Below, one piece after another: positions 2,389-28,180 of a DNA stretch of 41,911 nucleotides; positions within the stretch are counted from its first letter, which is position 1; each line of letters starts with the position of its first letter. A program made the position numbers and the translations under genes. Origin of the DNA: a virus; the IMG/VR virus record IMGVR_UViG_3300047334_000112, positions 1-41,911 of that record, one strand, 5' to 3'. The notes beneath the pieces are model-generated. The model did no database searches, had not been told where the DNA came from, and saw only the letters and a program-made list of their open reading frames with translations.

Positions 2389-2425
2389 GTTTAGAATGTT
2401 AAACAGTGTTCAGCGTCGCCGTCAA
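2389..2425 (-). promoter_or_regulatory. Promoter with TTAA palindrome, copy a
   Basis: On the minus strand a -35 TTGACG (2425-2420), a 17-base spacer and a -10 TTAACA (2402-2397) precede the AGGAGG and GTG start at 2368. The -10 lies inside GTTTAGAATGTTAAAC (plus strand, 2389-2404), an imperfect palindrome GTTTA-N6-TAAAC. Closely related 16-mers occur at 4553 and 8175. A regulator binding the palindrome would cover the -10 box. Confidence 0.6.
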
Positions 2426-2431
2426 GCGCTC

Positions 2432-3769
2432 TTATGCGATGGCCGCCATCTCGAAACCGATCTTCCCGATGGCGGCGGTCTTGCGCGCCACGGTGTCCGT
2501 GACGCGCTCGTCGATCGAATTGGCCAGGGAGATGAACCTAGCGCGCACCGTCTCCGTTTGGCCGACGCGATGCACGCGCATGATCGCCTGGGCGTTTGTT
2601 CCAGGTGACCAATCGCTCTCGAACATTATTAAGTCAGAGGCAGCTGTAAGGGTGAGTCCGGTCCCGGCGGCTCTAATGTTGCCAATGAACACTGCGACTT
2701 GTTCATCCTGTTGGAAGCTTTGAACCGCTTCTGCTCGATGATTTTCCCCGACCGATCCGTCAATGTAAACGACACCGTGTCCCCTGGTTGAAAGGTAACT
2801 CCGAATATCTCCGAGAGCCTTTTTGTGTAGCCCGAAGACGCAAACCTTCTTGAGTCCATTTTCCAGTTCCTCCGCAAGCATTTCAGCGAAAGCCGGCGCC
2901 TTCGCCTCGCCGACCAGCCGACGAAGGGTTGCGATGTGCTGGGCGTCCAGGAACGACAGGCCGCCCTTCTCCACCGCGTCCAGGACCGCCTGCTCCATGC
3001 CAGGATGCTCGCTCAGGAGCGCCCTGATTTCGGCGGTGTCGCCGTCCACGGTCTGGGTCGCGAGGAATATCGGCGGCAACTGCAAGCCGGCCTGCTCCTT
3101 CGTGCGCCGTAGAGACACACTTCTGATCACCTGGCGCAGCTCAGGAACCATCTCTTCCCGCGGCGTCTGGCGGCTGGCGTAAGATCCATTCCGGCTCGTG
3201 AAATAGCGCGCCTTGAACTTGGACTTGTCCAAAAGCGTGGCGCCGGTGAAACGCAGCATCGGCCAAATGTCCAGGGGGTCGTTCGGCATGGGCGTACCCG
3301 TGAGGAACCAAACCTTGGCCGCCCAATAGGCCAGCCCGCCCTTGCCGTCGCAGTTTGGACCCAAAAGGGCGATTGTGCGCTGCGAGCCGTCGTTCATCAT
3401 GTAGTGCGACTCGTCAAAGATCAGCGCCTCGATGACGTCGCCGCTCAAACGCGGCGCCCACTTCACCGCCATCTCATAAGACACCAGCAGGACGTCCACC
3501 TTGTCCTTCAGCCATAGGCCGAGGTCATTGATCTTCTTGGCCTTGAGGATCTTCCGCGGCAGACGGCCGAACTTGCGAAACTCGCCCCGCCATACTTCGC
3601 GCACGCTCGCCGGGCACACAATGATCGCCCGCCTGACCTTTGCGGCGTCCAAAGCGCCGATGGCTTGGGCGCTCTTCCCGACTCCCATATCATCGTAAAG
3701 GCAGGCGAGACGCTTTCCCGCCAGGAACGCCGCGCCTTCGTGCTGGTAAGGGAAAAGGTCAAGCGGCAC
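2432..3769 (-). CDS. SNF2-family DNA helicase/translocase
   Basis: 445 residues from GTG 3769, overlapping the end of the CtrA-like gene by 11 bases. Superfamily 2 motifs are complete: Q-like start LFPYQHEGAAF, Walker A MGVGKS (about 28-33), Walker B DESH (119-122), motif III TGTPMPN, and motifs V/VI AAGTGLTLTAAS and RVHRVGQT. The HRxGQ signature and the short length place it in the SNF2/SMARCAL1-like group used by phages as compact ATP-dependent DNA translocases. Probable role: fork remodelling or recombination during replication. It follows RusA and the CtrA-like gene in one coupled cluster, which fits branch migration plus junction cleavage. Confidence 0.9.
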   Translation of the reverse strand: MPLDLFPYQHEGAAFLAGKRLACLYDDMGVGKSAQAIGALDAAKVRRAIIVCPASVREVWRGEFRKFGRLPRKILKAKKINDLGLWLKDKVDVLLVSYEMAVKWAPRLSGDVIEALIFDESHYMMNDGSQRTIALLGPNCDGKGGLAYWAAKVWFLTGTPMPNDPLDIWPMLRFTGATLLDKSKFKARYFTSRNGSYASRQTPREEMVPELRQVIRSVSLRRTKEQAGLQLPPIFLATQTVDGDTAEIRALLSEHPGMEQAVLDAVEKGGLSFLDAQHIATLRRLVGEAKAPAFAEMLAEELENGLKKVCVFGLHKKALGDIRSYLSTRGHGVVYIDGSVGENHRAEAVQSFQQDEQVAVFIGNIRAAGTGLTLTAASDLIMFESDWSPGTNAQAIMRVHRVGQTETVRARFISLANSIDERVTDTVARKTAAIGKIGFEMAAIA

Positions 3770-4145
3770 TGGGCGGCGCCTCGTCGAGCGCCTGAGCGAA
3801 AATCGCCATCCCTGCCGGCGACATCTGATAACCGCGCCCCCAAACCGTATCGATCGGCTTCTGATCGCCGCAGCGATAGATTAGCTTGGTGCGGATTTTG
3901 CAAATAAACACATCAACGATTTTTTGCTCGGCCGCTTCGTCTGGGTTTGGGTAAAGAATTTCAAGAGTAAATTCTTTGGTTATCATTCTCCCCGCGCGAT
4001 CATAAAGCGCCAGCGCTAATTTGGCTTCAGACGGTGTAAAGCCGAAAGCCTTGGACAGTTTCGCCAATCGGTTTTCTGATTGCTCGACTTTTAAGGCTCG
4101 CTTGAAATACGCCAGCTCTTCTTCTAATTTTTCGTATGTTTTCAT
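3759..4145 (-). CDS. CtrA-like winged-helix DNA-binding protein without receiver domain
   Basis: 128 residues from ATG 4145, whose ATG overlaps the stop of the RusA gene (TGATG). The N-terminus (about 1-30) is a charged heptad-like helix, likely a coiled coil. Residues from about 35 form an OmpR/PhoB-type winged helix (Trans_reg_C): a GFTPSEAKLALAL helix, MITKEFTLEILYP, then KIVDVFICKIRTKL and IDTVWGRGYQMS. The DVFICK and TVWGRGY blocks are the signature of alphaproteobacterial CtrA rather than of PhoB-type regulators in general. There is no phospho-acceptor receiver domain. The protein ends SAA; a terminal Ala-Ala is a known ClpXP recognition feature of CtrA and of ssrA tags. I infer a phosphorylation-independent CtrA mimic or a phage operon regulator. 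Confidence 0.85.
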   Translation of the reverse strand: MKTYEKLEEELAYFKRALKVEQSENRLAKLSKAFGFTPSEAKLALALYDRAGRMITKEFTLEILYPNPDEAAEQKIVDVFICKIRTKLIYRCGDQKPIDTVWGRGYQMSPAGMAIFAQALDEAPPSAA

Positions 4146-4552
4146 CACGATAGAATCCCCATCTTGAAAACCCCGACGTCGGTTTTCGCCACGCAACCAT
4201 ATCGCTTGGTCACGCGTAAGTCCGTGACTTGGGCGTCGTCTTTGAACGCGACGCCGTTCAGTCCGTCGAGGATGATCTTGGCGCAGTTGTCGATGTCGGG
4301 CTTCTTGGGCGCTGGCGATCCTGGCGCCGCGGCGCGGCGCTTCTTTGACCAAGACTCAGGCACGTCATAGGTGATCTCGATCTGCACAGAGACAGGACCT
4401 TCCCATGGCGCGGCGCCCTTCATCTCCAGTCCGGCCAGATGAGCCACCTTGTTTTCATAGCTGGCGGTCGCCTTATCGACGAAACGCACGGCGCCGCGCT
4501 GGCCAGTCCTGGCCCAGCCGCGCGGCGCGCCCATGACGGTGAAAGTGATCAT
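4145..4552 (-). CDS. RusA-like Holliday junction resolvase
   Basis: 135 residues from ATG 4552. RusA-family features: VMGAPRGWARTGQR near the start, then KKPDIDNCAKIILDGLNGVAFKDDAQV, which carries the catalytic acidic residues (PDIDN and DDAQV), and a final Lys-containing strand. RusA dimers cut four-way junctions; in phages they resolve recombination or packaging intermediates. The length is typical. No Shine-Dalgarno precedes the ATG. Instead a promoter -10 ends eight bases before it, so the transcript may be leaderless. First gene of a cluster with the CtrA-like protein and the helicase. Confidence 0.9.
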   Translation of the reverse strand: MITFTVMGAPRGWARTGQRGAVRFVDKATASYENKVAHLAGLEMKGAAPWEGPVSVQIEITYDVPESWSKKRRAAAPGSPAPKKPDIDNCAKIILDGLNGVAFKDDAQVTDLRVTKRYGCVAKTDVGVFKMGILS

Positions 4553-4589
4553 GCTTAAAATGTTAAACGCCTTTCCCGTTCGACGTCAA
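4553..4589 (-). promoter_or_regulatory. Promoter with TTAA palindrome, copy b (possible leaderless start)
   Basis: Minus-strand -35 TTGACG (4589-4584), a 17-base spacer and -10 TTAACA (4566-4561), with the same geometry as the promoter at 2389-2425. The -10 lies in GCTTAAAATGTTAAAC (plus strand, 4553-4568), which abuts the RusA ATG at 4552. A transcription start about seven to eight bases after the -10 would fall on the A of the ATG, giving a leaderless mRNA. The -35 overlaps the end of the upstream HTH gene. Confidence 0.6.
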
Positions 4590-5124: not shown

Positions 5125-5214
5125 GTGTGAAAGCAGAACGATGGCGCCGAAGGCGATCGCGTAGAAAGCCAGGGCGCCAGCTAGGTTGAGCGCGAGAACG
5201 GCGGCGCGCATCAT
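5122..5214 (-). CDS. Small single-pass membrane peptide, 30 aa
   Basis: ATG 5214 overlaps the stop of the Ala-rich gene, and a second ATG follows immediately (ATGATG). The peptide starts MMRAAVLALNLAGALAFYA and continues as one hydrophobic stretch to IVLLSH, with an Arg at position 3 and a His at the end. It is one predicted membrane helix with the short positive side at the N-terminus. Such tiny early phage membrane peptides can alter host envelope or immunity functions, but no family is recognisable. Coupling to the Ala-rich protein suggests the two act together. Confidence 0.55.
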   Translation of the reverse strand: MMRAAVLALNLAGALAFYAIAFGAIVLLSH

Positions 5215-5768
5215 GCGGATATCTTAAGGAAGATTTCGCGTTGCGCCTCTTGTTCTGCGGCCCAGGCGGCGGCCCAGGCGGCGGCCTCGGCGGCGGCCTC
5301 GGCGGCCCCGGCGGCCTCGGCGGCGGCCCCGGCGGCGGCCCAGGCGGCGGCCCCGGCGGCGGCCCCGGCGGCGGCCGCGGCGGCCCCGGCGGCGGCCCAG
5401 GCGGCGGCCTCGGCGGCGGCCTCGGCGGCCCCGGCGGCGGCCCAGGCGGCGGCCCAGGCGGCGTCCGCGGCGGCGTCCCCGGCGTCCGTATCAGCGTCGA
5501 GCCAGTTTTGCGCGGCGTTCAAGGCGGCTTGAACGCGAGGATCCTCGTTTTGGTGAGCGACGCGCTGAGCGCATTCTAAAGCGAATTGAACGCATTGGCG
5601 CTTCATGCCGAGGCGGCCGGCGACCCAAAGTAGCTCGCCGATCGACGCGCCCGCCGCCAAAGCTTCCGCGGCTGTCATAGCTTTGCGATCGCCGAACAAG
5701 GCGAGGCGGCTTTTGAGGCGGCAAGGGTTTATGGCGACCAGCTGGTCGCGGGTTATCGAAACGGGCAT
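5211..5768 (-). CDS. Ala-rich repeat protein, possibly Imm5-like
   Basis: 185 residues from ATG 5768. The first 90 residues are ordinary and contain a helical segment (CVQFALECAQRVAHQNED, then NAAQNWLDAD). From about residue 93 to 175 the protein is a run of Ala with periodic Trp, Gly or Glu (AAWAAAGAAEAAAEAAA pattern). This layout, a short folded head followed by AAWAAA-type repeats, resembles proteins annotated as putative immunity protein Imm5 in bacteria and phages, but I cannot confirm the family. The repeat is encoded by near-perfect GCC triplets, so it could change length by slippage. It lies between module copies 1 and 2. Confidence 0.6.
   Translation of the reverse strand: MPVSITRDQLVAINPCRLKSRLALFGDRKAMTAAEALAAGASIGELLWVAGRLGMKRQCVQFALECAQRVAHQNEDPRVQAALNAAQNWLDADTDAGDAAADAAWAAAWAAAGAAEAAAEAAAWAAAGAAAAAAGAAAGAAAWAAAGAAAEAAGAAEAAAEAAAWAAAWAAEQEAQREIFLKISA
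5262..5479. repeat. GGC/GCC triplet-rich low-complexity repeat
   Basis: About 220 bases built almost wholly of GGC triplets (plus strand), interrupted by CCA, CTC or CCC at regular spacing, giving 6-, 9- and 15-base periodicities. On the minus strand it encodes the Ala-rich tail of the gene at 5211-5768. The plus strand also reads open as Gly/Pro-rich sequence, which is a by-product of composition. Confidence 0.85.
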
Positions 5769-8062: not shown

Positions 8063-8102
8063 TTTATCGATTATCGATATCACCGCATTGATAATCGATA
8101 AA
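8063..8102. promoter_or_regulatory. Perfect 13-bp inverted repeat (operator or origin element)
   Basis: TTTATCGATTATC (8063-8075) and GATAATCGATAAA (8090-8102) are exact inverted copies with a 14-base spacer. Each arm also contains ATCGAT. The repeat sits midway between the leftward promoter at 8022 and the rightward promoter at 8128. A dimeric or tetrameric DNA-binding protein site, or part of a replication origin, is likely. The high-AT arms stand out from the surrounding GC-rich DNA. Confidence 0.75.
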
Positions 8103-8174: not shown

Positions 8175-8190
8175 GCTTACAATGTTAAAC
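8175..8190. promoter_or_regulatory. TTAA palindrome, copy c
   Basis: GCTTACAATGTTAAAC matches the elements at 2389 and 4553 (consensus GYTTANAATGTTAAAC). Unlike them it has no TTGACG 17 bases away (the position reads GGCGGC on the minus strand), so here it may be a regulator site without a promoter of its own. Confidence 0.55.
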
Positions 8191-8251
8191 GCTGCACAGC
8201 CGATCGCCGCCTCGGCCAGGGCCCTAAGGCGTTGAAGCGTAAAGGCATTCC

Positions 8252-26533: not shown

Positions 26534-28180
26534 ATGAAGCGCTTTTTCAAAGTCCTCGGGCTGTCCCTGGCTTTAGCTTCTCAGTTTTTTGGCGCCCTCG
26601 CTGAGGCCCAAACAAAGCACAGGTATTTCACTGCCGTCGCAGTAAACGGGGGGCAGTCAGCTACAAACGGGGCTAACTTAACCCGTTACATGTTGGCCGG
26701 AACCCGCTTAAGAATTCTTGATGCACAGTTCAACGTGTCATCCCAATACGTATATGCGGCGAGCAATATTATTGTCGGAACGCCGAACTGGACGTGCCAC
26801 AACCCGCGACTTCTATTAACCAACTGGCAAATTTCATCTTCCGGCACAATCAACAATCCGGGAAACGCGATTAACATCGAGAAGCTCGCGTTTTGGAATT
26901 CGGCGGGCACGGTCACGACGCCGATCACCATCCAAGGGTCTCGCGCTTATACAATCCCTAACGGCGGCCAGGTCTGGACAGACCCTGCGCCTGTCGATTT
27001 GACCGCGAACAGCACCTACAACATTCGTGAAGCCTACAATGTCGCGGTTGGCGGCAATCGCGTCGGGAGTTCAGTTCCGCCGATACCCGGCGAGGGCTTC
27101 GTCGTCAGTTCAAGCGATCGGTCCAGCTATGTCGATACGTTCACGGCGATGGGGCCGAGCTTGGGCGTGGGCAACGCGTTCTACATGCCGATCGCCATGG
27201 CTTGCCAAGGCTGGGATGGATCGCCGGTCATTTGGATGCTGGGCGACAGCATCGGTGACTATCTTCAGGTCAACGCCACCTTGGCGGACAGCAGAGGCAA
27301 TCGCTCGTGGGTCGAGGACATGCTCGACGACTCAGGGCGTCGCCTCGCTTACAGCAATTGGAGCCGAGTAAGCGCTACCCCAGCGTGGTACTATGGGTCG
27401 CAGTTTCTGGCTAACGCTATCGCGGCGTTCTCGGCCCTAGGGTCTCAGCCCCCTTTCACGGCGGTTCTCAACGAAACCGTCGTCAACTCGATCCAGGGCA
27501 AGGGCGTGAGTGGTACGGAGGCGCAGCTTACCGCGCTTCAAGCTGCAATGCAGGCAAATTGGCCCGGGACCGCCTTTTATCAGACGCTTTCGACGACCTA
27601 TACCTCATCAACCGACGGGTGGACCACAACCACGAACCAGACGCCAAACAATGGCTTTACTGTCGGGGGAACGAGAGACCAAGTCAACGCTTGGATTGAG
27701 GCGAATACCGCGTTCACCGCCTACATTGATCCAACGCCTGTATTGGAGGCCAACAACGTTTGGCTTGTTCCCAACTATTCAACTACATTGGCGGGCGGCA
27801 CAGCTGTTGGCAACGCCATTCCGGCCAACTATTATTACACCTCGGCCAGCGTTTCAAACGCTTTATACCTCAATGCCTGTCCTCCCATTGGTACTTTTCT
27901 AGTCTTTGAACCGGGCACATCAAATCAAGACTACAATACAGGTGCCGGATATGGCATCGTCAGCGAAGTTAACAACGGAACAAACTGTTTTGTAACGCTT
28001 GGTCCCGCCACTAATCAACAAATCGGCTGGCTCAATTCCTCACCTATCGCCAAAGCCCACGCATTGAATGTTACGGTGACCAGTTCTGACAGCATAGACG
28101 GTCTGCACCCGACATATGCCAACACACAGGCCGCCGCTGCTTACGCGATTTCGACGCAGAAACCTAAGATATCTAAATAG
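26534..28180 (+). CDS. Exported SGNH/GDSL-type esterase
   Basis: 548 residues, ATG three bases after the previous stop codon. Signal peptide MKRFFKVLGLSLALASQF...ALAEA before QTKHR. Residues about 30-215 form a beta-rich domain. The SGNH block I is WMLGDSIGDYL (Asp238, Ser239), VLNETVVNS may be the block III Asn region, and block V is DGLHPTYANT (Asp522, His525), giving a Ser-Asp-His triad. SGNH enzymes in phage tails remove O-acetyl groups from capsule or LPS sugars. Four cysteines occur. Unlike usual tail esterases it has an export signal, so it may act on newly made surface polysaccharide from inside the cell. Confidence 0.78.
   Translation: MKRFFKVLGLSLALASQFFGALAEAQTKHRYFTAVAVNGGQSATNGANLTRYMLAGTRLRILDAQFNVSSQYVYAASNIIVGTPNWTCHNPRLLLTNWQISSSGTINNPGNAINIEKLAFWNSAGTVTTPITIQGSRAYTIPNGGQVWTDPAPVDLTANSTYNIREAYNVAVGGNRVGSSVPPIPGEGFVVSSSDRSSYVDTFTAMGPSLGVGNAFYMPIAMACQGWDGSPVIWMLGDSIGDYLQVNATLADSRGNRSWVEDMLDDSGRRLAYSNWSRVSATPAWYYGSQFLANAIAAFSALGSQPPFTAVLNETVVNSIQGKGVSGTEAQLTALQAAMQANWPGTAFYQTLSTTYTSSTDGWTTTTNQTPNNGFTVGGTRDQVNAWIEANTAFTAYIDPTPVLEANNVWLVPNYSTTLAGGTAVGNAIPANYYYTSASVSNALYLNACPPIGTFLVFEPGTSNQDYNTGAGYGIVSEVNNGTNCFVTLGPATNQQIGWLNSSPIAKAHALNVTVTSSDSIDGLHPTYANTQAAAAYAISTQKPKISK

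Follow-up and report, generated by a model that had tools for sequence, protein, structure and literature searches.

The DNA analysed here, referred to as the window, comprises 41,911 nucleotides, positions 1 to 41,911 of the viral record IMGVR_UViG_3300047334_000112. Our subject is a gene encoding a 128-residue protein, P0001, which lies between genes for a nuclease and a helicase/ATPase. The features needed below are listed by window coordinate, with residues numbered as in P0001.

2389..2406, minus strand: third, weaker copy of an 18-mer, CTGTTTAACATTCTAAAC, upstream of the open reading frame (ORF) 1865-2368
2432..3769, minus strand: SNF2-family helicase/ATPase (PF00176, E 4.2e-21; phrog_62, E 7.1e-86)
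3759..4145, minus strand: P0001 gene, receiver-less CtrA-type DNA-binding protein (translation, profile, tree, dN/dS, AlphaFold)
3819..4040, minus strand: winged-helix DNA-binding domain PF00486, residues 36-109 (Pfam, AlphaFold, structure match)
3822..3854, minus strand: predicted wing IDTVWGRGYQM, residues 98-108 (AlphaFold and CtrA alignment; TVWGRGY is the same as in CtrA)
3870..3926, minus strand: predicted recognition helix QKIVDVFICKIRTKLIYRC, residues 74-92 (AlphaFold and CtrA alignment)
4044..4136, minus strand: predicted single long helix with a short coiled coil, residues 4-34 (AlphaFold; heptads read from the sequence)
4145..4552, minus strand: RusA-family Holliday-junction nuclease (PF05866, E 1.7e-27)
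4553..4570, minus strand: promoter-like 18-mer copy GCGTTTAACATTTTAAGC, just upstream of RusA/P0001/SNF2, overlying the -10 of TTGACG-N18-TAACAT
8175..8192, minus strand: second 18-mer copy, identical at 17 of 18 bases, in a divergent intergenic region

A sequence-only reading of the window had placed a phage CtrA mimic at 3759-4145. The coordinates were right and the gene is encoded on the minus strand; read on the plus strand, the interval is broken by 5 stops. Both of the blocks that had been singled out, VDVFICKIRTKL and IDTVWGRGY, are present in the 128-residue translation. The P0001 gene sits in a leftward replication operon. Its start codon and the stop of RusA overlap (TGATG), and its 3’ end overlaps the GTG start of the SNF2 gene by 11 bases, which suggests that the three genes share one transcript. 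The neighbours, described earlier as a resolvase and a helicase, were specified by Pfam and PHROG as a RusA Holliday-junction nuclease and an SNF2-family ATPase. That the three form a coupled cluster is borne out by the overlaps in the window but not by the single close relative of this phage (IMG/VR 3300047174_000108, hereafter the sibling), in which a 262-residue ORF stands between RusA and the CtrA-type gene, and a Dam-type adenine methyltransferase between the latter and SNF2. At another locus, L272, an ORF that by eye resembles a C5 cytosine methyltransferase precedes SNF2. The RusA/P0001/SNF2 cluster is a local arrangement that is not conserved, and the slot before SNF2 is variable. In six other terminase relatives, three of 42-45 kb and three partial contigs, no PF00486 match was found at E values up to 1 (0/6), and the P0001 gene is therefore accessory.

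The sibling matches most of the window with gene order kept, circularly permuted. The two ends of the window adjoin there, about 126 bases apart, and the window is therefore probably a nearly complete genome. It encodes a terminase, a head-tail adaptor, a head protein, DNA polymerase A, a primase-polymerase, a single-strand binding protein (SSB) and an exonuclease of the DUF2800/PD-(D/E)XK kind. No integrase was found among the ORFs scanned, a subset of all ORFs, which makes a lytic life likely; the window has no tRNA genes. Elsewhere, the 26534-28180 product matches PHROG 8480, a lysophospholipase L1-like esterase (E 4.1e-34), and is possibly a tail-associated esterase. A 185-residue ORF at 5211-5768 (minus strand) consists of a low-complexity Ala/Trp/Glu repeat (AAAWAAAGAAAEAA...) built of 12- and 9-base repeats, and has a longer version in the sibling. 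Repeat pairs that are 85-94% alike (5061-5128/5778-5845, 6361-6414/7700-7753 and 6602-6673/7967-8038) lie in and around gaps between small leftward genes, some with hairpins.

The profile search confirmed an OmpR-family C-terminal domain in P0001: Pfam Trans_reg_C (PF00486) matches residues 36-108 (E 3.4e-11, 43.5 bits), above the curated cut-off of 26.2, and together with the predicted winged-helix fold this makes P0001 a member of that family. PHROG 31800, ‘transcriptional regulator’, also matches (E 3.1e-15). No receiver domain with a phospho-acceptor aspartate was matched in P0001, either in the Pfam scan or in the classification of loci, in agreement with the absence of a receiver noted earlier. 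Nor is P0001 a SciP-family sequence (SciP being a small inhibitory protein of CtrA), as its Pfam scan to E 1 lists Trans_reg_C only.

The AlphaFold model, computed from a 57-row alignment (pLDDT 90.4, pTM 0.78), consists of a helix over residues 4-34, the winged helix and a small C-terminal helix. The structure comparison proposed with the original reading gave OmpR-family matches, i.e. ArlR, CovR and PhoB, over about 74 residues. The short coiled coil that had been said to stand in place of the receiver is upheld in so far as helix 4-34 is predicted, but the hydrophobic heptads span only about Y4-L18. Replacement of the receiver by a coil is likewise only part of the change: the receiver is gone, but linker and beta-platform have been replaced as well, the four-stranded N-terminal platform being absent from the model, which has no strand before about residue 55.

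The gene is under purifying selection. The one close relative, in the sibling, is 86-89% identical in amino acid sequence, and comparison with it gives a dN/dS of 0.19 (19 synonymous and 13 non-synonymous changes), in the range of the neighbouring RusA (0.12) and SNF2 (0.17) genes. Conservation in a related phage at this dN/dS rules out a chance ORF. The G+C content of the gene, 50% against 60% for the genome, suggests a later acquisition.

We then consider the origin of the domain. In a tree of 121 domains over 80 columns, the 23 other OmpR-family domains taken from four alphaproteobacterial genomes for comparison split off with support 100/99, and P0001 lies opposite, with CtrA and its phage relatives. 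It does not fall with non-CtrA regulators, the placement that had been named beforehand as speaking against a CtrA origin. P0001 falls in a phage clade, although its branch is long, as are others on the CtrA/phage side, and its exact position there is uncertain. Pairwise scores do not overlap, P0001 giving 53-65 bits against CtrA and 20-38 against other OmpR-family domains; together with the tree split, they rule out a non-CtrA origin. The viral and cellular sets were gathered by the motif KI[IV]DVF[IV]C and are biased towards CtrA-like members, but two results are independent of it. Firstly, W102, in the wing and outside the motif, occurs in all of the 63 aligned phage domains and in none of the 23 non-CtrA domains. 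Secondly, P0001 alone, searched against 297 Hyphomicrobiales genomes, found a match in 289, and the ten top loci inspected all encode full-length CtrA with its receiver. Close cellular homologues, sought with P0001 peptides, were not found. As had been proposed, the alignment shows the recognition helix and wing kept as in CtrA: K75, I76, D78, V79, F80, C82, K83 and R85 are the same, as are T100, W102, G103, R104, G105 and Y106 in the wing. Which of these positions would touch bases is taken by analogy from PhoB-DNA structures. By sequence, the domain is CtrA-type. The host is likely to be alphaproteobacterial, and the ancestry of P0001 implies that it would have CtrA.

P0001 is one of many such proteins. 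The viral motif search gave 147 confirmed viral stretches, 80 of which were kept. Among the classified viral and phage rows, 24 have a receiver and 63 do not, the 63 including P0001 itself, some near-duplicates and a few pieces of ordinary ctrA truncated at contig ends. About 59 viral loci have a CtrA-type domain minus the receiver, near-duplicates and fragments among them. The uniqueness implied by the sequence-only reading does not hold, as alphaproteobacterial phages commonly encode similar proteins, some of which already bear the annotation ‘ctrA’. Their N-termini vary, with coils, CxxC modules, domains of about 100 residues and fusions. At about 28 of the 59 receiver-less loci a DUF6551-like gene lies beside the CtrA-type gene on the same strand, upstream or downstream (in L037, one of these, a ParB-like part is fused to the CtrA-type domain), and at 16/59 a methyltransferase-type gene lies within 1.5 kb; the 24 receiver-bearing loci have 0/24 DUF6551 and 1/24 Dam genes, the loci compared being related and the counts not independent. 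The window has no DUF6551-like or MT-A70-like match anywhere. DUF6551, ParB-like by eye, adjoins the CtrA-type gene at L014, L017, L023, L025, L043, L046, L049 and L059, at L062, L063, L082, L085, L089 and others, and at L204-L208, with an MT-A70 or similar methyltransferase nearby. Two phage CtrA-type proteins (L047, L054) have, by eye, a beta-platform-like N-terminus, and receiver-bearing viral ones such as L018, L022, L028 and L050 have a degenerate receiver matched at about E 1e-6 to 1e-8; together these suggest stages of receiver loss.

Where might P0001 act? No exact TTAA-N6-8-TTAA occurs in the window or in the sibling genome, about 0.1 exact CtrA box being expected by chance in such a 42-kb genome. 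Near matches are not in excess either: one-mismatch TTAA-N7-TTAA sites number 6 against 3.1 expected, TTAA-N7-TTAAC with at most one mismatch is found 0 times in the window against 1.6 expected, and TTAACCAT half-sites are not clearly enriched in the window. Boxes pooled around receiver-less viral genes number 1 against 1.0 expected. The scan itself works, since cellular ctrA loci give 16 against about 3. The lack of canonical boxes in either phage thus weakens control of the phage’s own genes through them and leaves host targets open; in a genome of 42 kb it is weak evidence for action on the host.

Both phages contain another element. The 18-mer GCGTTTAACATTnTAAGC is found at three intergenic promoter positions in each, which 0/100 shuffles reach, and plausibly is a phage operator or promoter element. 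It contains a TTTAAC core, and two of its copies overlie the -10 of TTGACG-N18-TAACAT. Because the copy at 4553-4570 abuts the RusA start codon, the transcript from this promoter may be leaderless. Outside the window, more than one copy was found in the sibling only. The divergent intergenic region also holds an inverted repeat at 8063-8102, TTTATCGATTATC...GATAATCGATAAA, half conserved in the sibling and a possible operator.

The strongest alternative to a host role follows from this element: P0001 would be a drifted CtrA-derived domain that regulates the phage’s own promoters in the leftward early/replication operon, possibly via the 18-mer. This is a serious possibility, though not the one towards which we lean. 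The promoter positions of the 18-mer, its overlap with the -10 and the copy that immediately precedes RusA and the P0001 gene all argue for it, as does the general habit of small phage DNA-binding proteins, the usual target of which is the phage itself; the conserved DUF6551 gene pairs in many relatives fit phage-internal regulation equally. But the 18-mer lacks the TTAA-N7-TTAA spacing and may be merely a shared promoter, and the terminase relatives manage without a P0001 gene. Moreover, a 70-residue helix-turn-helix protein encoded near the P0001 gene (4586-4798) and 100% identical in the sibling is an equally good candidate to bind it. Relatives of that protein were found in the sibling only, the phage in which the 18-mer also recurs, so that co-occurrence favours neither candidate.

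An unlikely alternative is that P0001 is a passive antagonist, either because the coil pairs with a partner from phage or host or because P0001 occludes CtrA sites without activating transcription, so that CtrA output is lost. The absent receiver is compatible with this, and in the model the altered N-terminus and missing beta-platform could change contacts with RNA polymerase, but no pairing partner was found. Least probable is that the gene is a functionless piece of a host ctrA, in decay or present by chance: the low G+C and the single close relative might be read in this way, but the frame is intact in both phages at a dN/dS of 0.19, the predicted fold is of high confidence and many intact relatives share the architecture.

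Action on host CtrA sites is the reading that we tentatively favour over control of the phage’s own promoters. P0001 may, on the sequence evidence, be an accessory phage transcription factor that acts on these sites as a stand-in or competitor, a proposal that we hold at somewhat short of an even chance. The N-terminal helix would pair two copies into a DNA-binding dimer independent of phosphorylation; the shortness of this helix in the model counts against that step. Because its DNA-facing residues match those of CtrA, P0001 would recognise CtrA-like TTAA sites. Its main targets would be the host’s CtrA-controlled promoters or the host origin, given that the gene is accessory and the phage lacks a canonical CtrA box. 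During infection, P0001 would then be a signal-blind stand-in for host CtrA, or its competitor. More broadly, and more doubtfully, alphaproteobacterial phages may repeatedly have taken the CtrA DNA-binding domain, shed the receiver and fitted new N-termini (coil, CxxC module or other domains); the resulting signal-blind stand-ins would rewire the CtrA regulon of the infected host, often together with ParB-like DUF6551 and an adenine methyltransferase.

Published work shows that the CtrA of the host binds promoters in some alphaproteobacterial phages and regulates them (Mascolo et al. 2022, PMC9437464), phage Jorvik needs host CtrA for infection (PMC10589892), and phiCbK encodes a homologue of GcrA (PMC3556154, cited in PMC9437464). 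Receiver-less CtrA domains of phages would reverse the known direction, with phages addressing or bypassing the CtrA network. In the open literature we found no paper on such domains, and CtrA is not named in the text of the paper describing the RDJL Phi 1 genome. As far as we found, these genes have been annotated individually for years and are unstudied as a class. Being small, intact and readily expressed, the proteins make CtrA-site binding directly testable.

Compared with known systems, P0001 shares with CtrA of Alphaproteobacteria the KI(I/V)DVFICK(L/I)R block and the TVWGRGY wing, at about 45-56% identity where the domains match. It differs from full-length CtrA in being encoded by a phage, in having no receiver, phosphorylation site or linker, and in the long N-terminal helix that replaces the beta-platform. 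With the PhoB, ArlR and CovR domains (PDB 1gxq, 6iju and 3rjp) it has the winged-helix fold in common over some 73-75 residues, but these possess the beta-platform, which P0001 lacks, and non-CtrA recognition residues. Among named phages, its best matches come from the Rhodobacter phage RcIroh group. The helix-turn-helix proteins of that group, like those of Paracoccus phage vB_PmaS-R3 and of RDJL3, have a CtrA-type domain without a receiver but are 204-279 residues long, with another N-terminal domain of about 100 residues. The best structural match in BFVD is a 151-residue receiver-less protein that is encoded near replication genes in the Roseobacter phages RDJL Phi 1 and Phi 2 and annotated there as ‘transcriptional regulator CtrA’; it belongs to a different phage group, with about 33% overall identity, a short N-terminus without a coil and a C-terminal extension. 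The same architecture is seen in coiled-coil proteins of about 116-140 residues from alphaproteobacterial (pro)phages, such as L014, L023, L025, L059 and L067, which belong to the same broad phage clade; their genes adjoin one for DUF6551 and often also one for an MT-A70 methyltransferase, whereas the P0001 phage has neither.
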